NCBI GenBank assembly: GCA_903891045.1
Contig: CAITDH010000006.1
Coordinates: forward strand, 1 to 33,617
DNA from: an uncultured Desulfobulbaceae bacterium
GTDB lineage: Bacteria; Desulfobacterota; Desulfobulbia; Desulfobulbales; Desulfocapsaceae
Length of the DNA: 33,617 bases
Direction: 5' to 3'
Shown one piece after another: positions 2,920 through 29,283 of this stretch. A program made the translations under genes and the position numbers. Under the pieces are notes generated by a model. That model was not told the DNA's origin. It saw only the letters and a program-made list of their open reading frames with translations, and made no database searches. Each line of letters begins with the position of its first letter. The stretch's first letter is position 1.

Positions 2920-4476
2920 TCAAACTCCGGGCAAAACGATAGTAAACAACGTTCCTTCCCCCTCTTTGCTCTCAACAGCAATCGTTCCATGATGATGCTC
3001 GATAATATTGCGGCTGATGGCAAGACCAAGCCCGGTCCCACGATTTTTATCAGTAAAAAAGGGTTTGAAGATCTGCCCTACCTTTTCGGCAGACATCCCT
3101 TTACCATTATCACGAACCATAATCTTCACCGCTCCCGCCGTCCTTGGCTCCCGCGGGTTTAGGCCGTCCCTGGCCGTCACCGCTCTCGCCATCCCTGACT
3201 CCCGCGGATTTAGACTATCCCTGGCCGTCACCGCTCCGTCGGTTTCTCCAATGGTACTCGTGACCTGGAGTATTCCCTGATCACCCATAGCCTGCAGGCC
3301 ATTCACCAGAACATTTAACAGGGCCCGATAGAACATATCCTGATCCAGATCAATTGAAGGAAGATGGGGGTCAAGCTCGGCCCGTACCTCCACATTTTTT
3401 TCTCGGGCAGAGGGTTCAATAAACTGTAAGGCCCGACGGATCACACCATTGACATCAACCTTTGCCAGTTTTGGTTCCTGGGGTCGCGCAAAATCAAGAA
3501 ACTCCATGACAATGTTATTGAGCCGTGTAGTCTCGTCCACAATAATCCTGGCTAACTGCTCATTGCCGGGCGCCACCTTTTTAATCCTCTTTTCAAGAAG
3601 TTCAGCAGTGCTCCTGACAATACCCAACGGACTTTTGATCTCATGGGAAACCGTGGCCACCATGGTGCCAAGATGGGCAAGCCGTTCTGACTGGTTCAAC
3701 TTCTCCTCCAGACGAAGCCGTTCCGTAGCCCGTTCCTCCATAATCCGATCGCCACGACTGACAATCGTTCGCAGAACCAGAAACAGCACCGCCATAATAA
3801 TGCTGGAGACCAGAATAATTCGCCCCTGCAATTGGATGATAGCATCATATTCCTTGGACAGATCCTGGGTAATCTCGATCACCCCCATTATCTGTGGACT
3901 GGCTGTGCCGCTATTACCCACTTGACGAAAAGGGATATAGGTCTTGAGCTGACATTGCACCGATGGGGCACCAGGGATCAGATTCCAGAGGGAACCACTA
4001 AAGTGGATCTGGGAATTGGAATTGTTTTTCAAGGCCTTCTGATATTCAACCCCACCCATATCTTTCTTTCCCATGAGTTCCGGTCGTGTCGAGTAGGAAA
4101 TAATATTGACGCTGGAGTCATAGATAGTGACCGATTCGGTCTTCAGCCCCTGCGTGGCATTTTTGACAATGCGATCCAACAACTCAAACTGATCAGGGTG
4201 GCTGAGGGCAATTTTCCCAAAACGGACAACCGTTGGCAGGACAAAACTCCGAAAGACCTGCTGGTTTAGATTTTCCGCCAGCAGCAGCGAATAATCCTCG
4301 CTCTGCTCAAGCATGATCTTCCGGGCATGGTTAGAAATAACCCAGGAGAGAATCAGGGTAAAAACAAGAATAACACCCAGGCTGGTAAAGGAAAAATACT
4401 TAACCAACCGGAAAGGCCGCAATCCAGCCTGAACCTCCTCCTGGCGCAAAGGTTTTTCAACTGCCAGCGAGACCAT
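2920..4476 (-). CDS. Membrane-bound sensor histidine kinase (NtrB/ZraS-like) carrying an in-frame repeat insertion
   Basis: From ATG 4476 the product is 518 residues. It has a transmembrane helix at about 27-48, a periplasmic sensor region to about 217, a second helix at about 219-238, and a coiled-coil linker. The dimerisation/phosphoacceptor domain carries VSHEIKSPLG (His278). The ATPase domain has an N-box (LNVLVNGLQAMG), a G1 box (DNGKGM) and a G2 box (GTGLGLAI). It should autophosphorylate and pass phosphate to a response regulator not found nearby. Residues 415-449, in the hairpin between LQVTSTIG and VKIMVRDNG of the ATPase domain, are two tandem 17-residue copies of the dispersed repeat described separately. 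The ORF-track start at 4563 lies inside the radical SAM gene. The true start is probably 4476 or a GTG at 4503/4506 preceded by GGGG. It follows the radical SAM gene almost without gap, so co-transcription with the dcw cluster is possible. Confidence 0.85.
   Translation of the reverse strand: MVSLAVEKPLRQEEVQAGLRPFRLVKYFSFTSLGVILVFTLILSWVISNHARKIMLEQSEDYSLLLAENLNQQVFRSFVLPTVVRFGKIALSHPDQFELLDRIVKNATQGLKTESVTIYDSSVNIISYSTRPELMGKKDMGGVEYQKALKNNSNSQIHFSGSLWNLIPGAPSVQCQLKTYIPFRQVGNSGTASPQIMGVIEITQDLSKEYDAIIQLQGRIILVSSIIMAVLFLVLRTIVSRGDRIMEERATERLRLEEKLNQSERLAHLGTMVATVSHEIKSPLGIVRSTAELLEKRIKKVAPGNEQLARIIVDETTRLNNIVMEFLDFARPQEPKLAKVDVNGVIRRALQFIEPSAREKNVEVRAELDPHLPSIDLDQDMFYRALLNVLVNGLQAMGDQGILQVTSTIGETDGAVTARDSLNPRESGMARAVTARDGLNPREPRTAGAVKIMVRDNGKGMSAEKVGQIFKPFFTDKNRGTGLGLAISRNIIEHHHGTIAVESKEGEGTLFTIVLPGV
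3125..3237 (-). repeat. Dispersed in-frame repeat, two tandem 51-bp units inside the histidine kinase gene
   Basis: On the minus strand the sequence GAGCGGTGACGGCCAGGGA recurs exactly 51 bp apart (anchors GTCACCGCTC at 3176 and 3227 on the plus strand). A third, slightly altered anchor (TTCACCGCTC) lies at 3125, again 51 bp away. Each unit contains CTAAA(T/C)CCGCGGGAG and a second copy of the inner motif GCCAGGGACGGC. Translated in the kinase frame each unit gives a 17-residue peptide (AVTARDGLNPREPRTAG and a variant). That is a different frame from the one used by the copies in ftsQ and murE. Confidence 0.85.
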
Positions 4477-4495
4477 CTTGCTAGGGGAGATATCG

Positions 4496-6256
4496 TCAAT
4501 CACCACATACCCCACAACGCCTGCAAACCTTGGTATCGCAGGCCATAGTTGGCTTTTCCGCAAAGGCCTTCATATATTCATCCCACAGATATTGTTGTTT
4601 GACCCCGTGATCGACAATATTCCAGGGAACACGTTCATCGCCCCCATATCCACGGACGGCAAACTGTTCCGCCTCAAGCCGGTTTTTGCGCATGGCCTGT
4701 TTCCATGAGATCCCCTGTGCCGCCATATCCAACAAAATCGGGGCAAGCCGGCGATCCCCCCGCGCCAATACCGCCTGGAACAAGACGTTCTCCGGTTTGT
4801 CACAGGTCATACGGACATTGGCCTCTTTTTTTAGCCCATTTTGTAAAAACTTTATCTTGTCCTTGAGGGTCCGCACAACATCTGCCGCATCCCGCGTTTC
4901 TCCTGGTGCCAGTCGCTCACTCACCCCAAAGGGATGAAACTGAAACGGGGTCCACGGTTTTGGGGTAAAACTGTTCACCGAAAGGGTAATTTCACAGAGC
5001 CGCCCGCGGTTACGTCCTACGGGCTGGATCCGTTCCTTGATCTTTCTGATCAGCGCCAGCATCTCCTCAAGATCTTCCAGCGTCTCGGTAGGCAGCCCAA
5101 TCATCAGATACAGCTTCAACTTATACAGACCCGCGCGAGCCAAGGATTCAGCTGCAGTGAGAAGATCTTCTTCGGTCAACCCCTTGTTGATTACCCGGCG
5201 CAAACGCTCGGAGGCGCCATCAGGGGCAATGGCCACGCTTTTAAGCTGACTTTTTTGCAGAAGCCCCAGAAGTGGCCCGGAAATCCGGTCCGCACGCAGA
5301 GAAGAGAAGGAGAGGGAACAACCACTATCAAGGAGATACTGGGAAAGAAGGGTCAAGGAATCCTGATCCGCCATCTCCATCCCTAACAACCCGATGCGCT
5401 TGACTGTTTCCGGACGTTCGGCCAGACCCTGCAGGACGGCGTCAACATCCCACAGTCGTGGCGGACGATAGATAAATCCGGCGGCACAGAATCGACACCC
5501 CCGGGAACATCCCCGGCCAAGCTCGGTAAGATACAGGTCTGAAAACTCTGCCTGCGGGGTCAAAACCTGGGAATGCGCCGCCAGGTCACAGGTCTGGACT
5601 GTCACCTTGTGAATACGCTCAGGCAAGCCAGGTGCAGGAAGATGTCCGGCAAAGGTTCCATTCTTGTCATAACACGGGGTATAGAGCGCCGGGGCATAAC
5701 AACCGGGGAACTGCAGGCTCACCTCTTTTATCAAATCGGCACGTCTTCCGCCTTTCCCTCCTTCAAGATGGGCGGCAAGAAAGGTGACAAGGGCAACCAA
5801 AACAGGCTCGGCCTCGCCGAGAACAAACAGATCGATAAAAGGGGCCAGAGGCTCAGGATTCATAAAGGTGGCGACACCTCCACAAATAACTAATGGTTGC
5901 GCAGCGGCCACCTGTTCTTCGCGATTTTCAGCAAGAGGGGGGAGAGACCCAGCCAGAAGAAGACGAACCAGGTTCAGATAATCATGTTCAAAACTGATGG
6001 AGAAAAAAATCAGGGGAAAACTGTCAAGGGTGCGGCCAGACTCCAGAGATCGCAGGGGAACGTCTGGCCCGGAAAAGAAAAAGCGCTCGCAGACAATGCC
6101 TTCCATTGCCCCCAACAGACTATAGACCAGTTGAAACCCAAGGCTGGACATCCCAACGGAATAGGAATTGGGATAAATCAGGGCGACTGGCAGCTGCCCT
6201 GTCCATTTTTTGCAATAACTCCCTTTTTCCAGATCAAGCAGTACGCGACGATCCAT
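4496..6256 (-). CDS. Radical SAM protein with B12-binding-like N-terminal domain
   Basis: The 586-residue product has an N-terminal Rossmann-like region (LPVALIYPNSYSVGMSSLG) resembling the B12-binding-like domain of TIGR03960-type radical SAM proteins. The radical SAM cluster motif is CSRGCRFC, in the phrase LTELGRGCSRGCRFCAAGF. It coordinates a [4Fe-4S] cluster that cleaves S-adenosylmethionine. No DxHxxG cobalamin motif is evident, so cobalamin binding is doubtful. The tail is cysteine-rich (CDTKVCRRCGVCGD) and could hold a second metal or cluster site. The substrate is unknown; tRNA or cofactor modification would be typical of relatives, but this is inference. The gene starts 75 bp after ftsZ and ends about 20 bp before the histidine kinase start, so it looks like a 3' extension of the dcw operon. 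Confidence 0.8.
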   Translation of the reverse strand: MDRRVLLDLEKGSYCKKWTGQLPVALIYPNSYSVGMSSLGFQLVYSLLGAMEGIVCERFFFSGPDVPLRSLESGRTLDSFPLIFFSISFEHDYLNLVRLLLAGSLPPLAENREEQVAAAQPLVICGGVATFMNPEPLAPFIDLFVLGEAEPVLVALVTFLAAHLEGGKGGRRADLIKEVSLQFPGCYAPALYTPCYDKNGTFAGHLPAPGLPERIHKVTVQTCDLAAHSQVLTPQAEFSDLYLTELGRGCSRGCRFCAAGFIYRPPRLWDVDAVLQGLAERPETVKRIGLLGMEMADQDSLTLLSQYLLDSGCSLSFSSLRADRISGPLLGLLQKSQLKSVAIAPDGASERLRRVINKGLTEEDLLTAAESLARAGLYKLKLYLMIGLPTETLEDLEEMLALIRKIKERIQPVGRNRGRLCEITLSVNSFTPKPWTPFQFHPFGVSERLAPGETRDAADVVRTLKDKIKFLQNGLKKEANVRMTCDKPENVLFQAVLARGDRRLAPILLDMAAQGISWKQAMRKNRLEAEQFAVRGYGGDERVPWNIVDHGVKQQYLWDEYMKAFAEKPTMACDTKVCRRCGVCGD

Positions 6257-8954: not shown

Positions 8955-10037
8955 TCAACCCGATCCGCTGTGTGCGACCAGCACCTTGTTTTCCAGATAA
9001 TCCATCCGGATATAGACAATATCCGCAATGGTCATTCCCTGCTCTGTCTCTTTATATAAAACCTCTAACACTCTTTTTAAACGACTGTATTTCGTTCTGA
9101 CTTCCCCTTTACCAAAATAAATAGGAAAGGGATAATCAACCAGATAGAGAGTCATTCCTATATCCTGATCAAGATGAATCTCGGAAAGATTCTGAACCGG
9201 AAAATTAGGATTATTCTGTTTAACTAATTTAAGCAAGGCCAGAGATTCACGAATCATCGCTTTTCGCTCGCCGTTGCCGATTCCGCCAGACAAACGAGAC
9301 GAAGCCGAGACTCCGGTCTTGGCTCCGGCGGCATTAGGCCGTCCCTGGCCGTCATCTCCTTTTACTTCAAGGCCGGTTATAATAGGGAAGTCCAGATCCT
9401 GTCCCGGCTCAACTGGTGCAAATGCAACCCCGCTCTTATCGAGATAAAAAAACTGTTTACGGCCAGAAGCCTCTGGAGCAATCAGGGCCTCTGCGACATA
9501 CTCCTTAATAGAGATCACCAGCACACCAGGCCAGTCACGTTTGACCACAGCCTCCGACACCCATGGATGCGCCTTGAGAATTGCCTCAATATGTGTCGGC
9601 CTCAGGGTCAGCAGGCTGGTCTGATACCTGACCCCGGCAAGTTCACGAATCAACGTGGGAGTAGTCTTCCGACAACCGGTGATTGTAATCTCCCGTATCT
9701 TAAAAAATGGCATATCAGATACAGCATTCACAAGCGGACCATACGCCACAAAGGCCACAAACACTATGCACGCCAGAAGACAGAGTGGAGCCACAAGGCT
9801 CCTGACCTTGCTTTTTGCCACTACAGGAGATCGTTGCAATTCTTTACGTTTAGCAGCCCGTTGAAACCTGTCCCGTATCCTGCTAACCAATCCGCTACGC
9901 TTCTGAGCCTGAGCAGCGGATTTTGAAGTAAACACCGGCTGCCCCCTGCGACCAGAAGCAGCGTCAGAGCGAACAGCTCTCTTATTTTTATTATGCAAAC
10001 GAAAAAAAGAACCGATCTTTTTAATAAAGTTCAACAT
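8955..10037 (-). CDS. ftsQ: Cell division protein FtsQ (POTRA domain) carrying an in-frame repeat insertion
   Basis: A basic cytoplasmic tail of about 95 residues precedes one transmembrane helix (VAPLCLLACIVFVAFVAYG). A POTRA domain follows (FFKIREITITGCRKTTPTLI, then HPWVSEAVVKRDWPGVLVI), then a beta domain. This is the FtsQ architecture, which links early and late divisome proteins and binds FtsB/FtsL. Between PIITGLE and IRESLALLKLV lies a low-complexity insertion (about 30 residues, including GQGRPNAAGAKTG) encoded by a copy of the dispersed repeat. The ORF track starts at a TTG (10046). ATG 10037 is the likelier start, although the GGGGAG before it is closer than usual, so the choice is not firm. 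The gene follows murB by a few bases and precedes ftsA by 6 bp. Confidence 0.92.
   Translation of the reverse strand: MLNFIKKIGSFFRLHNKNKRAVRSDAASGRRGQPVFTSKSAAQAQKRSGLVSRIRDRFQRAAKRKELQRSPVVAKSKVRSLVAPLCLLACIVFVAFVAYGPLVNAVSDMPFFKIREITITGCRKTTPTLIRELAGVRYQTSLLTLRPTHIEAILKAHPWVSEAVVKRDWPGVLVISIKEYVAEALIAPEASGRKQFFYLDKSGVAFAPVEPGQDLDFPIITGLEVKGDDGQGRPNAAGAKTGVSASSRLSGGIGNGERKAMIRESLALLKLVKQNNPNFPVQNLSEIHLDQDIGMTLYLVDYPFPIYFGKGEVRTKYSRLKRVLEVLYKETEQGMTIADIVYIRMDYLENKVLVAHSGSG
9265..9355 (-). repeat. Dispersed in-frame repeat inside ftsQ
   Basis: On the minus strand GATGACGGCCAGGGACGGCC is followed by TAATGCCGCCGGAGCC, matching the kinase and murE copies nearly base for base over about 40 bp. 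The remainder (to GGCAACGGCGAGCG) is diverged and resembles the short second copy in murE. The translation frame (GDDGQGRPNAAGA) equals the murE frame and differs from the kinase frame. Confidence 0.8.
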
Positions 10038-10051
10038 GCTCCCCAAACCAT

Positions 10052-16051: not shown

Positions 16052-19000
16052 TCAAGGAACCATTAACTGCTCAACCACGACTTCAAGACGCATACCCCTT
16101 GAACCTTTGACCAGTAACCAATCGCCAGCCTGCACCTGACCCGCAGCCAACAGCCCTTCAATCCAGGCTGCCATATCTTTCTTCTCCTGAAAAATTCTGA
16201 TCCGCTGGTTATCCATACCTGCCATCCTGGCCCCCGTGGCAGTTTCATCAGCGAAATCCCCAACGAGTGCCAGATAATCAACCCCCTGATCCGCCGCATA
16301 CTGCCCCACTTCCCGGTGCGCGCCGGCACTTGTCGGCCCCAGCTCCAGCATATCTCCCAGAATCGCCACCCGTCTGCCGCCATCCTGCCGGCCAAGGGTC
16401 GCAAGCCCTGCCCGCATGGAGGCCGGATTGGCATTATAGGTATCGTTTAAAATATGCAAGCCGCCCTTTCCGGTAACAATCTGCATCCGTTTATCAGCAG
16501 GCTGAAAGGCAGCAAGACCTGCGGCAATCTCACTGATGCCGATCCCAGCGGCACAGGCAATGGCGGCGGCGGCCACTGCATTGGAGATATTATGCACGCC
16601 TGGCACCTGCAAGGTCACCGGAATGGTCTCGCCGGCAGCATGGAGGACAAAACTCTGGGCAAAGTTCCCAGCTTTCTGGACGTCAGAGGCAAAAACCTGA
16701 GGCGCGTAGCGCATACCGGCTTCATCTGCGGCGTATGAAATCTTTTGTTGCTGATACCTCTCAGCACAGGCCCGCACAAGGGGATCATCCAGATTAATCA
16801 CCAGCGTAGTAGCGGCGCCACTGCCGGCAAACAACTCTTCTTTGGCTCGGGCAACCCCTTCCAGAGAATGCAGTCCTTCCAAATGCGCGGCATGGACATT
16901 GACAATACAGGCAATATCAGGATCAGCAATCTCAGCCAGCCTGGCGATCTCACCGGGCCGGTTCATCCCCATCTCCAGGATGGCGGCCTTCTGGCCTGGG
17001 CCAAGAGGTAAAAGAGAAAGAGGTAACCCGATAAGGTTATTAAAATTACCTCGGGTCTTCAATACCTGATCAGGCGGCGCATCCTCACGCGATAGCCAAT
17101 GCTGCTCAAAAATCGCCGAGGTCATCTCCTTGACCGTGGTCTTGCCACAACTCCCGGTAATCCCCACCACCAACGGTCGGCTGACCGTCTTCATCACCTG
17201 CCGCCGGTACGCGGCCAGATCGCCAAGGGCCCGCAAGGTGTCATCCACCAACAGACAGGGAATGGCGGGAAGTGCCTTCTGCGGTGTATCCTTGCAGACG
17301 ACAAGACAACCTGCACCGGCCGCCGCCACCTGTTCCAGAAAATCATGACCGTCAAAACGCTCGCCGGCAAGGGCCACAAAGATATCGCCAGCCGCCACCT
17401 TCCGGCTATCCGTGACCACTGCCCCAAGCCCTACTGCTCCGCACGAATCACAGGTCAACATACCCTTGGTCGCCAGTTTGAGATCCTCAAGCTTCCAGGC
17501 GGTCAGCGCCTTTTTTACCTCAAGGGTATCATCAAAAAAACGCTTTCCATCCTGACTAAGCTGATACAACTCATGCCCTTTGCCGGCAATGAGCACGATA
17601 TCCTCTGCTGTCGCCGCACCAATGGCCGTAGCGATAGCCTGGGCACGGCTATAGATTACCAGAAATCCCTTCTCGTTTGCTACTGAGGTCCAAAGCCAGG
17701 AAGGGGATCGCTCGCCGTTACCGCTCAAACGGATACCGGACACTATCTGGGCGACTATTTCCTGGGGCGATTCACCACGCGGGTTATCATCAGTAACAAG
17801 CACCACATCACAGCGCTGACCGGCAATCTCACCCATAATCGCCCGTTTTCCTTTGTCCCGGTCACCGCCGCAGCCAAGGACACAGATCAATCTCCGATGC
17901 GGAAGCCGGGACAGGGTCTCCAGTACCTTTTCCAAGGCGTCCGGGGTATGGGCATAATCAACAAAAACCGCGGGCCGAAGATGCGCCTGCTGCTCTGCCG
18001 GCAGCACCCGCTGCATACGACCAGGGGCCCCGGACGCATGGGCCAGCATGGAGGACAAAGCCTTGGCCTGAATGCCCAGGGCCAGTCCCAGCCCCATCAC
18101 GGTCTGCAAGTTTGCCACATTGAAGTCACCCACCAGAGGGGTTGCAACCTGCACCTCATCGGCGAGAACATGCAGGGTCATAACAGTGGAATTCAAATCT
18201 AACTGGATCGTCAAAGGATAGATATCACAGTCACCGCTCCCGCCAGTCGCTCCTGCGCCGTCCCTGGCTCCCGCGGCATTAGGCCGTTGGCCGTCACCGC
18301 TCCCACCACACTGCAAGACCTGCGCACCCTGAGCTTCACACAGCTCAACCAATCGTCGCGTCCTTTTCTCTTCTTCAGGGTCATAACAGACGGAACGGGT
18401 AATAACCGCCTTGCCGTCTTTTTTCAGATGATCACGAAACAGGAGGGCTTTGGCCGCGAAATAATCATCCATGTCCTGATGATAATCCAGATGATCACGA
18501 GAGAGATTCGTAAAGGCAACCACATCAAACTGCAGATCACCCAGGCGACGCTGAACCAGGGCATGCGAAGAAACTTCCATGATCACATGGGGCACACCCG
18601 CGTCTGCCATCTGCCGGAGGAGGGCCTGAAGCAATAACGGCTCAGGAGTTGTAAAAGGGGCGGGAATTGTAATATCCTGCCCCTTGGCATCTCGATAACG
18701 ATAATTGACCGTGCCGATGACCCCAACCGACAGTCCGAGCTGCTTCAAGCAGCTCTCAAGGAGGTAGCTGACAGTGGTCTTGCCATTGGTGCCAGTGACA
18801 CCAATCATGGTCAAGCCCTGTGCTGGATGTCCATACAGATTAGCCGCGATCTGCGCATAGGCCAGATGGCTGTCCGCAACCACAATCACACACTGGCCAC
18901 ATCCCGCAAACTGTTCTGCTGTCACCCTGCCTTCTTCCACCACCAATGCCGCACAGCCGCTGGCCATCACCTGTTCCAGATAGGCATGACCATCTGTTCT

Positions 19001-19195
19001 GCTACCGGCCAGGGCCACAAAAAGAGAACCAACCTGAACTTTTCGCGAATCAGCCGTCACCCCAGAGACCGTTATTCCGGCGGGCAGTTTTGTACCCAAA
19101 ACAGAATACGCCATCGAGCCCAAAAGTGCCTGCAGAGAATATTCTCCGCTGCCACTCTCTTTGGAAAACTGCCTTTCAGGTTTTACACAATTCAT
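16052..19195 (-). CDS. murEF: MurE-MurF fusion: UDP-MurNAc-tripeptide synthetase and tripeptide--D-Ala-D-Ala ligase
   Basis: One 1047-residue frame encodes two consecutive cytoplasmic Mur ligases. Residues 1 to about 567 are MurE: VTADSRKVQVGSLFVAL, P-loop GVTGTNGKTTVSYLLES, FVDYAHTPDALEKVL, the DNPR motif (469-473) that in MurE indicates meso-diaminopimelate as substrate, and IAGKGHELYQL. Residues from about 575 are MurF: VVTDSRKVAAGDIFVALAGE, P-loop GITGSCGKTTVKEM, ILEMGMNRPGEIARLAEI and LNDTYNANPASMRAGL. The lengths match two complete enzymes, and no stop or frameshift separates them. MurE carries two insertions: residues 297-322, a copy of the dispersed repeat, and about 488-513, a shorter related stretch before the SRAQAI helix. 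The upstream Shine-Dalgarno is weak; the start was chosen as the first ATG before the conserved domain. Confidence 0.95.
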   Translation of the reverse strand: MNCVKPERQFSKESGSGEYSLQALLGSMAYSVLGTKLPAGITVSGVTADSRKVQVGSLFVALAGSRTDGHAYLEQVMASGCAALVVEEGRVTAEQFAGCGQCVIVVADSHLAYAQIAANLYGHPAQGLTMIGVTGTNGKTTVSYLLESCLKQLGLSVGVIGTVNYRYRDAKGQDITIPAPFTTPEPLLLQALLRQMADAGVPHVIMEVSSHALVQRRLGDLQFDVVAFTNLSRDHLDYHQDMDDYFAAKALLFRDHLKKDGKAVITRSVCYDPEEEKRTRRLVELCEAQGAQVLQCGGSGDGQRPNAAGARDGAGATGGSGDCDIYPLTIQLDLNSTVMTLHVLADEVQVATPLVGDFNVANLQTVMGLGLALGIQAKALSSMLAHASGAPGRMQRVLPAEQQAHLRPAVFVDYAHTPDALEKVLETLSRLPHRRLICVLGCGGDRDKGKRAIMGEIAGQRCDVVLVTDDNPRGESPQEIVAQIVSGIRLSGNGERSPSWLWTSVANEKGFLVIYSRAQAIATAIGAATAEDIVLIAGKGHELYQLSQDGKRFFDDTLEVKKALTAWKLEDLKLATKGMLTCDSCGAVGLGAVVTDSRKVAAGDIFVALAGERFDGHDFLEQVAAAGAGCLVVCKDTPQKALPAIPCLLVDDTLRALGDLAAYRRQVMKTVSRPLVVGITGSCGKTTVKEMTSAIFEQHWLSREDAPPDQVLKTRGNFNNLIGLPLSLLPLGPGQKAAILEMGMNRPGEIARLAEIADPDIACIVNVHAAHLEGLHSLEGVARAKEELFAGSGAATTLVINLDDPLVRACAERYQQQKISYAADEAGMRYAPQVFASDVQKAGNFAQSFVLHAAGETIPVTLQVPGVHNISNAVAAAAIACAAGIGISEIAAGLAAFQPADKRMQIVTGKGGLHILNDTYNANPASMRAGLATLGRQDGGRRVAILGDMLELGPTSAGAHREVGQYAADQGVDYLALVGDFADETATGARMAGMDNQRIRIFQEKKDMAAWIEGLLAAGQVQAGDWLLVKGSRGMRLEVVVEQLMVP
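17708..17731 (-). repeat. Probable short degenerate copy of the dispersed repeat in murE
   Basis: On the minus strand GAGCGGTAACGGCGAGCGA matches the repeat's left end GAGCGGTGACGGCCAGGGA at 16 of 19 positions and is read in the same frame as the first murE copy (SGNGERS versus SGDGQR). It sits in an insertion of roughly 20 residues between the DNPR-helix region and the SRAQAI helix, where most MurE proteins have a short loop. Confidence 0.45.
18230..18304 (-). repeat. Dispersed in-frame repeat inside murE, bounded by 12-bp direct repeats
   Basis: The 12-mer GGGAGCGGTGAC (minus strand) occurs at 18293-18304 and again at 18230-18241, exactly 63 bp (21 codons) apart. Between them lie GGCCTAATGCCGCGGGAGCC and GCCAGGGACGGC, shared with the ftsQ and kinase copies. 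Relative to the 51-bp kinase unit it lacks 3 bp near the left end and has 15 extra bp (CAGGAGCGACTGGCG) near the right end, so the frame is preserved. It encodes a glycine/alanine-rich loop. Confidence 0.85.
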
Positions 19196-24426: not shown

Positions 24427-27400
24427 TTGAAAGACACAAACAAACCATTGAGCATGACCACTGCTGCCGGACCTGACCCCGTGAGTGCCACGCCCCAGAG
24501 CTCCGGGGGACAGCCCCTCACAAACCGCCGTGTTCTCTTCCTTCGTCTTGCCCTGGTGACGGCGGGCTATTTCGCGGCCTCGCACGCCGGCCAGTTGCTG
24601 GTCCTCGATCCCCTCCACGCCTCGCCGATATGGCCAGCGGCCGGAATCTCGCTGGCTTCCTTGCTGATATGGGGATCCAGACTGTGGCCCGGGGTGTGGC
24701 TCGGGGCCTTCCTCTTCAATTTTTTAGTGCATCCATCCGTTGCTGCCATTTTTCTGGCCGCAGCCGTGGCCAGCGGATCAACTCTGGCTGCCCTGCTGGG
24801 GGCGCGGCTGACCCGGCGGCTTTTCACTCCCGCCCTCCCCTTGGGAAAAGGGTCTGACATCTGGCGCTTTCTGCTTCTAGCCGGGCCGTTGCCCTGTCTC
24901 ATTTCTGCCTCCGTGGGCGTGGCTTCCTACTACCTTGTCGGCTGGATGAGCGCGGACGACATCGTCAGCCAGTGGCTCATGTGGTGGACGGGCGACAGTC
25001 TCGGCGTCGTGCTCTTTTCTCCGATGCTGCTCTCCCTCTGCTATGGGAACCAAAGGTTATGGCCCCGTTGCCGGGTGCGGATCGCCTTGCAGCTCTTCAT
25101 CACCGCCATGCTCTTAGCCGCAGGCCATTACGGCCTGGATCGCCTGGAGGAGATGCAGGCCCTGGCCGCAGCCACCAACAAGATGGATGCGGCCAATGAG
25201 CTTGGCTTCCACCACCTGTCGAACCCGACGCGCGGCCTGGCGTGCATCGAACGCTTCTTTGCCGCCAGCGAGGAGGTGACCAGGCAGGAATTTGCCACCT
25301 TCACCGCCAATATCATCCATCGTTCGACCATCCTGGCCGTGGACTGGGCGCCGCGTGTGGCGTCAAGCGAACGCCCGGCCTTCGAGGCCGCCAGGCAACA
25401 GGAGGAAGGGCACGACTATAACATCTTAGAAGTCAATTCCAGCGAGCAAACGGTCAGGGCCGGAGAACGCCCGGAGTACTTCCCCATCCTCTTCAGCGCC
25501 TCGCGGGCCTCTCTCCGGCCGGTGCCTGGCCTTGACCATGGCTTCCAGGAGGAGCGGCGGATAGCGATGGCCCAGGCTCGCGACACCGGCACCATGGTCG
25601 CCACCCGGATCTTGCCCCAGCCACGCACTAACCAGGACTCAATCATCATCTTCATGCCGGTGCATAACCAGGGCCTTGCTGCCGCGGGTGCCACGGTGGA
25701 GGAGCGGCGGATGGCCCTGCGCGGCTTCATTGTTGGCCTGTATGAGGTGAAGGCCCTCTTTGCCGACCTGACCCAGGCAGCAGAGACCAGAGGACTGTTC
25801 TTCCGGGTCACGGACATCAGCCCTGGCGAACCGGCACAGGTACTGATGAGCACCCTGCCGGCAGCGGTCACCCCCGCCTGGCATCAAGAGACAACCTTTG
25901 CCGGTCGAACCTGGCGACTGGACCTGCAGCCGAAGACTGTTGTCTGGCAGGACGGGGGTAGTCTCCAGTCACGTCTCTACCTCGGTTTTTCAATGCTGGC
26001 CGCCTTGCTGGTCGCCTTCGCCGCCCTGGGAGCCGCCAGCAGCAATGCGCGGGTCACGGCCAGTGAGATTTTCACCCATGCCGTCCTCGACAGCCTCAGC
26101 GCCCATGTGGCGGTCCTTGATGCCGAGGGCCGCATCCTGACCACCAACCGGGCCTGGCGGGACTTCGCCCAAACCAATGACTGCGATTGGAAATTGGTGA
26201 GCGAGGGGAGCAATTATCTTGCGGTCTGCGACCAGGCGGCGCTGCAGGGGGATAAAGATGCAGCCAGTGTCGCCCAGGGAATCCGGGATATCCTGGACGG
26301 TCAGCAAGGCACCTGGTTTCATGAGTACCCCTGTCATTCCCCCAGCGAGCAACGCTGGTTCTACTGCACCCTCTCCCGGTTTGCCATCAACGATACCTGC
26401 CATGTGGTGCTGGCCCATGCCAACATCACTCCCATGCGCCAGGCGCAAACCGCCCTCCAGGAGAGCCAGGACCGCTACCGTCGGCTGGTCGAAAATCTGG
26501 GCAGCGAGTATTTCTTCTATCAGCACGATACGAGCGGCCGCATGCAGTACGCCAGCCCCTCAGTCCAGGAGATCCTGGGCTACCCCGCGGAGGCATTCCG
26601 GGGCCATTACTTGGAATACACCCTGGACAGTGAAGAGAATCAGGCCGTGGCAGCCAATACTGACCTTGTGCTACGAGGGCGCCAGAGCACCTACACGGTG
26701 CTGGCCCGCTGCCAGGACGGTAGTGGCCGATGGCTGGAGGTGACCGAATTCCCGGTCCGAGACACCGCGGGGCAGGTGATCGGAGTGGAGGGTATCGCCC
26801 ATGACATCCATCAGCGGAGGCTGGATGAGGTCGCCCTGCGTCAGTTCACCGAAGAGCTGGAGACCAAGGTCGAGGAGCGGGCAGGCGCCTTGAAGACGGC
26901 CAATGACCTGATCGCCCGCCAGGAAGAGGAAGTGCGCGCCACCCTCGACAATCTGCTGGACTGCGTCATCACCATCAACGACCAGGGGATCGTCGAGTCC
27001 GCCAACAAGGCCGTGCAGAAGGTGCTGGGCTACACCCCGGAAGAACTCATTGGTTATAACGTCTCCAAAATCCCCGCCGAGCCCTACGGCAGCCACCATG
27101 ACGAGTACATCGCCCGCTACCTGCGCAGCGGTGATCCGCACATCATCGGCATCGGCCGCGAGGTGGAAGGGCGGCACAGGGACGGACGACTGATCCCCCT
27201 GGAACTGTCGGTCAGTGAGTTCCAAAGCCACGGCCAGCGATTCTTCACCGGTGTTCTGCGCGATATCAGCGAGCGGAAACGGCTCATAGCCGATCTGACC
27301 GAGGCCCGAAAGTTAGCCGAACAGGCGAACCGTGCCAAGTCGATCTTCCTGGCCACCATGAGCCACGAGATCCGCACCCCTATGAACGGCGTCATCGGCA

Positions 27401-29283
27401 TGGTGGAGGTGCTGGAGCAGAGTACCCTGAGCACCTCCCAGGTCGATATGGTGCATACCATCCGGGACTCGGCCATCAACCTGCTGGGGCTCATCGACGA
27501 TATCCTCGACTTTTCCAAGGCCGAGGCCGGCTACCTGGAAATGGAGCAGGTACCGGTCGCCCTGGTGGAGCTGATCGAGGATCTCTGCCAGTCGCTGGTA
27601 CCGATGATGGTCGCCAAGGGGATTCACTTTGATCTGTTTATCGCCCCGGCCGTCCCGGAGCTGGTCATCGGTGATGCCTTGCGGCTACGGCAAGTTTTCT
27701 ATAACCTGCTGGGCAACGCCATCAAGTTTTCCGATCCCGCTCAGACCCATCAGCCGGGACGAATATCACTGCGGGTGGAGGTGGCGCAAGCCAGACCACT
27801 GCAGTTGCTCTTCCGGGTCAGCGATAACGGCATCGGCATGACGCCGGAGACCGTGGCCCAGCTCTTCACACCCTTCTCCCAGGGTGAGATGTCAACCACC
27901 CGCCGCTTTGGCGGCACCGGGCTGGGACTCACCATCTGCCATCGCATAATGACCATTATGGGGGGGGACATTGTAGTGGAAAGCCGACCGAACAAGGGCA
28001 CAACCTTCTCCGTCACCCTGCCATTGACAGCCCCAGAAGAGCAGCCGCACCACTCATGGCCCGATCTTACCGGGGTTGATTGCCTGCTGGCGGACAGCCC
28101 CGATCTCGACAGGGCCGGTCTTTCCGTCTATCTTGAATATGCTGGGGCCCGGGTTGTCGCTACGGCAACTGTGTCTGCGGATTCCCCCCTGGTGGTGATC
28201 CTGGATGGCGGCAATGGGATGATTCCCAAGGAGACGCTGCTTGCCCCTTTTGTTGCCCTGCCGAATATTCGGGCCGTGCTGCTGCTTACCCGGGGAAGAC
28301 GGCGGCGGGCCCGGCAGGAAATCAACGGGATGGTCACCCTGGACGGTGTTGCCATGCGACGGCAGAGCTTTGTGAATGCGGTGGCGCTGGCAGCCGGCCG
28401 GACCGTTGCCGAGCCTCTTCCCCAGAAACAGGCCAAGGAGATGACTCTCGGCCAAGGGGCCACGTTGCCCAGCATCGCCGAGGCCATGGCACAAGGTCGG
28501 CTCATCCTGGTGGCCGAAGACGACGAGATCAATCAGAAGGTCATTCTCCAGCAGCTCGCCCTACTCGGCCAGAGGGCGGAAGTGGCGGACAATGGGGCGG
28601 AAGCTCTGTACATGTGGCGAGAGGGGGATTACGCTCTCCTGCTCACCGACCTGCATATGCCGGAGATGGACGGCTATACGCTGGCGAAAACCATCCGCCG
28701 GGAAGAGAACGGCGGCCGACGGATGCCCATTCTGGCATTGACGGCCAATGCCTCGCAGGGTGAGGTGCATCACTCCATCGCCGCCGGAATGGATGAGTAC
28801 TTGACCAAACCAATTCGTCTCCAGACCCTGCAGGCAGCCCTCAGTAAGTGGCTTCCCCCGACCCAGGAACCGTCTTTACCAGCGCCGCAGCCCGAGCCCT
28901 CAAGTGACAACAGCGAAACGATAGCAGTTGTCATGGATGTTACCGTATTGCAGGGGCTGGTGGGGGATGACCATGATACCGTGCGCGAATTCCTTGCCGA
29001 CTACCTGGCCGCGGCCCAGCGTCTGGGCGCAGAACTCAGCACAGCCGCCGCTATTGGTGACGGTGAACAGGTCCAGGCCATCGCCCACAAGCTGAAGTCC
29101 TCGTCGCGAACCGTCGGGGCAGGAACCTTGGCCGATCTGTGTGCCTCCCTGGAAAAGGCTGGTCAAGCCAGGGATCGGGATAGAATCCACCAGGTTATGA
29201 CAGACTTTACGGCCATGCTCGAGGCAGTGAAAACAGCATGCCGCACCTGGCTGACAAAACACGAAAAGGGAAAACGCCCATGA
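24427..29283 (+). CDS. Hybrid sensor histidine kinase: MASE1-CHASE-PAS-PAS-PAS-HisKA-HATPase-REC-REC-HPt
   Basis: This 1618-residue phosphorelay protein starts at a TTG preceded by GAGG at good spacing. The next ATG, at 24454, has no Shine-Dalgarno. Residues about 34-205 form a multi-span MASE1 sensor with the phrase ASPIWPAAGISLASL. A periplasmic CHASE domain (about 225-500) contains VDWAPRV and ERPEYFPILFSAS, and is closed by a helix at about 518-540. Three PAS domains follow (near 551, 678 and 834). The kinase has MSHEIRTPMNGV (His980), NLLGNAIKFSD, DNGIGM and GTGLGL. A degenerate receiver (about 1215-1320) keeps only LLADS and ILDGG. A canonical receiver (from 1358, LVAEDDE, Asp1408 in LTDLHMPEMDG, Lys in LTKPI) and an HPt domain with AHKLKSSSRTVGA (His1554) complete the relay. 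The stop overlaps the start of the EAL-type regulator, the probable output partner. Confidence 0.93.
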   Translation: MKDTNKPLSMTTAAGPDPVSATPQSSGGQPLTNRRVLFLRLALVTAGYFAASHAGQLLVLDPLHASPIWPAAGISLASLLIWGSRLWPGVWLGAFLFNFLVHPSVAAIFLAAAVASGSTLAALLGARLTRRLFTPALPLGKGSDIWRFLLLAGPLPCLISASVGVASYYLVGWMSADDIVSQWLMWWTGDSLGVVLFSPMLLSLCYGNQRLWPRCRVRIALQLFITAMLLAAGHYGLDRLEEMQALAAATNKMDAANELGFHHLSNPTRGLACIERFFAASEEVTRQEFATFTANIIHRSTILAVDWAPRVASSERPAFEAARQQEEGHDYNILEVNSSEQTVRAGERPEYFPILFSASRASLRPVPGLDHGFQEERRIAMAQARDTGTMVATRILPQPRTNQDSIIIFMPVHNQGLAAAGATVEERRMALRGFIVGLYEVKALFADLTQAAETRGLFFRVTDISPGEPAQVLMSTLPAAVTPAWHQETTFAGRTWRLDLQPKTVVWQDGGSLQSRLYLGFSMLAALLVAFAALGAASSNARVTASEIFTHAVLDSLSAHVAVLDAEGRILTTNRAWRDFAQTNDCDWKLVSEGSNYLAVCDQAALQGDKDAASVAQGIRDILDGQQGTWFHEYPCHSPSEQRWFYCTLSRFAINDTCHVVLAHANITPMRQAQTALQESQDRYRRLVENLGSEYFFYQHDTSGRMQYASPSVQEILGYPAEAFRGHYLEYTLDSEENQAVAANTDLVLRGRQSTYTVLARCQDGSGRWLEVTEFPVRDTAGQVIGVEGIAHDIHQRRLDEVALRQFTEELETKVEERAGALKTANDLIARQEEEVRATLDNLLDCVITINDQGIVESANKAVQKVLGYTPEELIGYNVSKIPAEPYGSHHDEYIARYLRSGDPHIIGIGREVEGRHRDGRLIPLELSVSEFQSHGQRFFTGVLRDISERKRLIADLTEARKLAEQANRAKSIFLATMSHEIRTPMNGVIGMVEVLEQSTLSTSQVDMVHTIRDSAINLLGLIDDILDFSKAEAGYLEMEQVPVALVELIEDLCQSLVPMMVAKGIHFDLFIAPAVPELVIGDALRLRQVFYNLLGNAIKFSDPAQTHQPGRISLRVEVAQARPLQLLFRVSDNGIGMTPETVAQLFTPFSQGEMSTTRRFGGTGLGLTICHRIMTIMGGDIVVESRPNKGTTFSVTLPLTAPEEQPHHSWPDLTGVDCLLADSPDLDRAGLSVYLEYAGARVVATATVSADSPLVVILDGGNGMIPKETLLAPFVALPNIRAVLLLTRGRRRRARQEINGMVTLDGVAMRRQSFVNAVALAAGRTVAEPLPQKQAKEMTLGQGATLPSIAEAMAQGRLILVAEDDEINQKVILQQLALLGQRAEVADNGAEALYMWREGDYALLLTDLHMPEMDGYTLAKTIRREENGGRRMPILALTANASQGEVHHSIAAGMDEYLTKPIRLQTLQAALSKWLPPTQEPSLPAPQPEPSSDNSETIAVVMDVTVLQGLVGDDHDTVREFLADYLAAAQRLGAELSTAAAIGDGEQVQAIAHKLKSSSRTVGAGTLADLCASLEKAGQARDRDRIHQVMTDFTAMLEAVKTACRTWLTKHEKGKRP

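Follow-up and report, generated by a model that had tools for sequence, protein, structure and literature searches.

The tandem repeat inside a sensor histidine kinase gene of an uncultured Desulfobulbaceae bacterium is, with good confidence, one site of a mobile DNA element that is short, non-autonomous and REP/RPE-like and that forms tandem arrays through recombination; its movement is inferred, and all genomes compared are drafts or metagenome-assembled genomes (MAGs). Apart from Rickettsia, few genomes are known to have selfish repeats in coding sequence. The filled, empty and multi-unit alleles detected in core enzymes across a genus constitute a natural experiment on proteins acquiring segments, and the element family also bears on the movement of short hairpin repeats for which no enzyme is known.

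A 51-nt array in a histidine kinase gene

The analyzed window, a stretch of 33,617 nt, corresponds to contig 6 in a draft assembly of 2.85 Mb. TRF identified a single strong tandem in it, at 3126-3237 (period 51, 2.2 copies, 85% matches, 0 indels), which confirmed the 51-bp units that the initial annotation had placed at 3125-3237. The host gene (2920..4563, minus strand) encodes a 547-aa sensor histidine kinase with HisKA and HATPase_c domains by Pfam and is ZraS-like by PDB sequence search. On the plus strand, the array consists of unit 1 (3129..3179; element strand CCGCTCCCGCCGTCCTTGGC...GGCCGTCA), whose complement the gene reads as AVTARDGLNPREPRTAG, unit 2 (3180..3230; CCGCTCTCGCCATCCCTGAC...GGCCGTCA), read as AVTARDSLNPRESGMAR and with a partly broken stem II (GACT/GGCC), and the partial third anchor CCGCTCC (3231..3237), a terminal direct repeat that closes the array. 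This anchor, already suspected from the first inspection, is real (3228-3237, TCACCGCTCC).

The insert had been described as 35 residues in a beta hairpin of the ATPase domain. Its length was exact, the orthologue in genome G083 being shorter by precisely those 35 residues, and the turn position was borne out by PDB sequence alignment, without a predicted structure. Kinase residues 438-475 align between ZraS residues 162 and 165 (PDB 9jfj), and the ZraS strands flanking this position are joined by two residues. Across orthologues, the site contains zero (G083), one or two units or decayed forms. In G088, the orthologue appears as two ORFs (173 and 392 aa); upstream of the insert, either a frameshift or an error in assembly divides it. 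A further kinase of the window, a 1618-aa hybrid sensor histidine kinase (BarA/TorS-like; 24427-29283, plus strand), lies on the strand opposite the cell-division cluster.

Related copies in ftsQ and murE

A repeat search of the window placed the two kinase units in one family with a copy in ftsQ and a copy in murE. The second host gene, ftsQ (8955..10046, minus strand; POTRA_1 and FtsQ_DivIB_C), harbors a truncated copy on the plus strand at 9317..9355 (9301-9351 in the repeat search) with gene frame GDGQGRPNAAGAR, frame B1. The third, a fused murE-murF gene for 1047 aa (16052..19195, minus strand), harbors a rearranged plus-strand copy at 18230..18307 (18246-18296 in the repeat search) with gene frame GGSGDGQRPNAAGARDGAGATGGSGD, also frame B1, and with the terminal repeat present at both ends. 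As initially noted, the kinase copy is read in another frame (AVTARDSLNPRESGMAR and AVTARDGLNPREPRTAG) than the copies in FtsQ (GDDGQGRPNAAGAK) and MurE (GGSGDGQRPNAAGARD).

The initial annotation had named a kinase copy matching the others no better than shuffled sequence as the result that would refute it. Kinase and ftsQ copies aligned with a score of 59 (best of 2000 dinucleotide shuffles, 28), kinase and murE copies with a score of 77 (best of 2000, 32). Because the real scores exceed every shuffle, this test does not refute the relationship. The MurE/MurF fusion ORF (1047 aa) matched NCBIfam PRK11929 (bifunctional MurE/MurF) at 1015 bits, slightly under the cut-off of 1023, and a long fused murE-murF ORF occurs in most genomes of the genus.

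Anatomy and fold of the element

The unit comprises 51 nt (element strand CCGCTCCCGCCATCCCTGGCTCCCGCGGCATTAGGCCGTCCCTGGCCGTCA) that begin with CCGCTCCC and end with GGCCGTCA, with ends placed consistently by comparisons of filled and empty orthologues. Its GC content is 75%, versus about 53% in host genomes. A related 54-nt subfamily generates 18-residue steps; spacing within arrays is mostly 51 or 54, and units are arranged head to tail.

We propose a fold in two parts. The first is an imperfect nested hairpin, CCGC-TCCC-GCCA-TCCC-TGGC-TCCC-GCGG, in which CCGC pairs with GCGG and GCCA with TGGC, while TCCC forms the loops. The second comprises the linker CATTA, a covarying hairpin GNNC-N6-GNNC (stem II) and then GTC, with a conserved CGTC end. 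In 42 representative copies, 94% of cells were paired in this fold, and the covariation score was 0.171, as compared to 0.068 for shuffled copies (0 of 500 shuffles reached it); sliding the stem partners destroyed the signal (at most 0.055). For 208 unique copies, we counted 87 double-change cells versus a mean of 29 and a maximum of 42 in 300 shuffles, and pair 36-45 showed 39 double changes with one single change. Since column shuffles leave the relatedness between copies in place, independent events are fewer than double-change cells. One row of the 42-copy alignment contains a wrong base in unpaired column 8, which affects none of the counted pairs; the 208 copies were extracted by machine. 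The stem types seen were GGCC/GGCC, GGAC/GTCC, GACC/GGTC, GGGC/GCCC, GCCC/GGGC, GTCC/GGAC and GTGC/GCAC. At the CGTC end of the 42 aligned copies, C47 and G48 are invariant and T49 and C50 are conserved in at least 90%; C47 pairs in stem II, leaving GTC unpaired. Such covariation of stems within coding sequence indicates that selection or copying acts on a DNA or RNA fold. The folding energy of the 51-mer was not better than that of shuffles (z of -0.4 to -1.5), and 54-type units scored better than the 51-type (z of -2.2 and -3.2).

Distribution across genomes

The genome of origin contains the element at about 30 places. BLAST recovered 35 pieces, and a core pattern of 30 bases, allowed three mismatches at most, occurred 13 times versus 0 on the reversed control. 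Scoring at most ten candidate regions per genome, we obtained matches in 17 of 93 Desulfocapsaceae genomes, comprising 15 of the same genus and one each in two other genera. Within the genus, 15 of 17 genomes contain the element; the other two, in which nothing matched, have completeness values of 55% and 63%. Most named records that include the exact core bear the label Desulfocapsaceae, Desulfobulbaceae or Desulfocapsa sp.

Beyond the family, copies were present in seven further genomes of the order, several at 94-98% identity and often at copy number one. Copies outside the genus frequently fall outside long ORFs. One genome of another family, G104, contains about 40 copies (41), of which those sampled (loci L303-L328) lie outside long ORFs; here, longer mosaic repeats, which have an 83-bp block in common and partly consist of TATTCGA heptamers, enclose the 51-nt core. 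In the wider phylum, three additional genomes matched, one of them weakly, and two have the core within longer repeats.

Two viral contigs contain the element. IMGVR_UViG_3300000815_000010, with portal, terminase and minor-head genes, is a genuine phage and a possible vector between hosts; its single, consensus-identical copy (L081:1634-1687) has a TGA end that serves as the stop codon of the minor-head gene. The second viral contig contains an in-frame copy within a 549-aa ORF. A search of viral contigs with the 54-type pattern gave no match, and neither did searches of PLSDB plasmids and INPHARED phages for the element.

Coding frames and host proteins

The length of the unit is divisible by three, and four of its six frames are free of stops. 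We considered these open frames as a selected trait and rejected the idea, as 94% of dinucleotide shuffles of the unit likewise have at least four; openness is attributable to base composition and needs no special design.

A profile search of 135 sampled stretches (1.1 Mb of DNA) returned 237 hits in 173 arrays, versus 0 on reversed DNA, and 165 of the 173 arrays lie within coding ORFs, chosen by a simple codon-usage score. Merging by orthology yielded about 111 independent sites, assigned to frames B1 (33), T1 (30), B2 (25), T2 (14) and T3 (1) or to no gene (8). All four stop-free frames, on both strands, are thus in use, while possible stop-frame sites number at most 9 of 111 versus 37 expected (p = 3e-10). 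Host proteins include GlnD, GlgC, IspDF, BioF, CCA tRNA nucleotidyltransferase, an ABC-F protein, MurD, a [NiFe]-hydrogenase subunit, TamB, a CobB/CobQ-like amidotransferase, QueA, MurE-MurF and FtsQ. MurG and FtsI, named from cluster position and sequence without a family search, are also hosts.

Protein-level selection would offer another account, in which a useful low-complexity linker peptide was duplicated and recruited as a module and the likeness in DNA is secondary to that in protein. The frame B1 peptide is flexible and Gly-rich (GGSGDGQGRPNAAGARDGGSGD), and the kinase insert sits in a loop, as this account would have it. It is already contradicted, however, and we give it next to no credence: the same DNA is read on both strands in four frames, of which none is rare, and the resulting peptides are unrelated; stem covariation crosses frames; and many copies outside the genus are not in long ORFs. 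Moreover, the GGAC/GTCC stem variant occurs at coding sites of all four frames, for which protein selection cannot account.

Differences in unit number at orthologous sites

At many sites, filled and empty orthologues differ by exactly 17, 18, 34 or 36 residues, with the ends of the element fixed. Two MurD sites, in two different species, each carry a single insertion of 17 residues, and these sites are empty in the relatives compared. Such clean single-copy insertions, where orthologues have no element-like sequence, are difficult to reconcile with ordinary intragenic minisatellites, by which each array would originate through local slippage and likeness between genes through gene conversion, without any insertion process. 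Changes in the number of 51- and 54-nt units at existing arrays and the direct repeats bounding them agree with such an origin, but the near-identical, often single copies in other families do not, and we consider it improbable as an explanation of the element.

The tRNA nucleotidyltransferase site has one unit in G079, two in G081, five in G087 (one of the 54-type) and none in nine others. The three filled species belong to three separate clades of the cluster tree. Their units are nonetheless identical at 48-50 of 51 positions (94-98%) in a surrounding gene that is only 74-78% identical. This pattern is better explained by repeated conversion, or by a recent copying event into a preferred site, than by long-standing vertical descent. 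The same data weigh against an exchange of entire gene segments among species, by homologous recombination or horizontal transfer, in which the element would be a passenger devoid of intracellular mobility: the flanks track species divergence and the units do not. Transfer of segments could account for the 27 of 111 sites common to at least two genomes and for the consensus-identical phage copy; about 84 of the 111, however, were found in one genome only (sampling incomplete), and we regard this alternative, too, as having only a slim chance of being correct.

Two earlier proposals are supported. Conservation or copying at the DNA level is strongly supported by the use of four frames, rather than the two originally noted, by the compensatory hairpin changes and by the near-identical units in diverged flanks. 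Tandem amplification is supported by differing unit numbers at orthologous sites, namely those of the kinase (0, 1, 2 and decayed) and the tRNA nucleotidyltransferase (0, 1, 2 and 5). In murE, two close relatives without the unit still have 12-13 nt of the terminal repeat, as expected, by inference, from deletion by recombination between terminal repeats. Junctions gave no consistent result for a target-site duplication or strict target motif (0-6 nt in common, no pattern). Concerted evolution within genomes was not supported: in a nearest-neighbor comparison for genome-specific homogenization, mean identity was 0.813 for other sites of the same genome versus 0.805 for other sites of other genomes.

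Relationship to known repeats

RPEs, as well as coding palindromes of Wolbachia and Methanocaldococcus jannaschii, lie in-frame in unrelated housekeeping genes (PMC3733652, PMC10969869, PMC2229807, PMC2996958). The 51-nt element is likewise a short dispersed repeat that occupies unrelated housekeeping genes in-frame, is, by inference, tolerated as a loop and in some genomes also lies between genes. It shows a defining feature of RPEs, in-frame placement within protein genes that are not related to each other, since 165 of 173 arrays lie in ORFs, in four frames. It differs by its units of 51/54 nt versus 105-146 nt, by its head-to-tail tandem arrays, mostly intragenic in the host genus, and by its occurrence in uncultured environmental Desulfobacterota rather than in obligate intracellular bacteria or an archaeon. 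Instead of one long palindromic stem-loop with terminal inverted repeats, it has two short hairpins.

CGTC-tagged REPs, for which no dedicated transposase is known, include RPE-4 and RPE-6, both ending in CGTC (PMC3733652). Our element shares with them the small stem-loop, the lack of a known dedicated transposase and some intragenic copies. It also ends in a conserved CGTC, but of this end only GTC is unpaired, whereas the tag of these REPs is an unpaired CGTC tetranucleotide. It lacks their 8-9 bp stem with a 4-5 nt loop and AT pairs at the base of the stem, having stems of 4+4 bp with an internal loop and of 4 bp and a GC-rich base, and it lacks their CCA tail and mostly head-to-head dimers, beginning with CCGCTCCC and forming head-to-tail arrays. 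The string 'Desulf' is absent from the text of the CGTC-REP paper (PMC3733652). As size, stem length, tail and head-to-tail tandems fit neither definition, we did not file the element as an RPE or CGTC-REP member; by analogy, its behavior resembles that of RPEs, and its CGTC end recalls CGTC-REPs.

RAYT-mobilized GTAG REPs and REPINs are similar as dispersed hairpin repeats, and each of the 17 genomes in the genus has Y1 transposase genes. The consensus has no GTAG tag, and no flanking RAYT gene was apparent, with no element at 10 sampled Y1_Tnp loci (29 kb; a subset of the Y1_Tnp loci found). MITEs are defined by terminal inverted repeats and target-site duplications, whereas the ends of the element are direct repeats and junction identity is 0-6 nt. 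Mycobacterial interspersed repetitive units (40-100 bp) are dispersed and tandem and polymorphic in unit number, all of which the element shares; they differ by lying mainly between genes and are not known to have a covarying hairpin. Rfam covariance models did not match the element, a single sub-threshold match lying outside it, and we found no earlier description of it in the open-access literature, most subscription papers being outside the scope of the search.

Proposed mechanism

The hairpins, defined ends and non-autonomy are most easily explained, by inference, by single-strand transposition in trans. Single-stranded hairpin copies may be inserted, possibly by a Y1-type (IS200/RAYT-like) transposase. 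Selection would then purge insertions that are out of frame, that place the element in either stop-containing frame or that fall within critical protein cores, leaving inserts that the host protein may tolerate as loops, for which no translation data exist. Between the terminal direct repeats of an array, RecA-dependent recombination or slippage could lengthen or shorten the array by whole units, and a short solo repeat would sometimes remain.

Many core enzymes gain 17 aa per copy in whichever of the four stop-free frames is read, and in this respect the element behaves like parasitic DNA tolerated by proteins; translation of the inserts and mobility were not observed. More tentatively, and with substantial doubt, it might represent a mobile element of a new class with preferred insertion sites: a double hairpin of 51 nt, without stops in four of its six frames, which inhabits essential genes, moves between bacterial families, perhaps on phages, and repeatedly adds or removes exact 17-residue loops at those same sites.

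For annotation, the 17- and 18-residue loops should not be taken for protein domains, and arrays can break assemblies. Contig 16 of G078 starts within a three-unit array (L220:1-136), which suggests that repeats of this element interrupt short-read assemblies.
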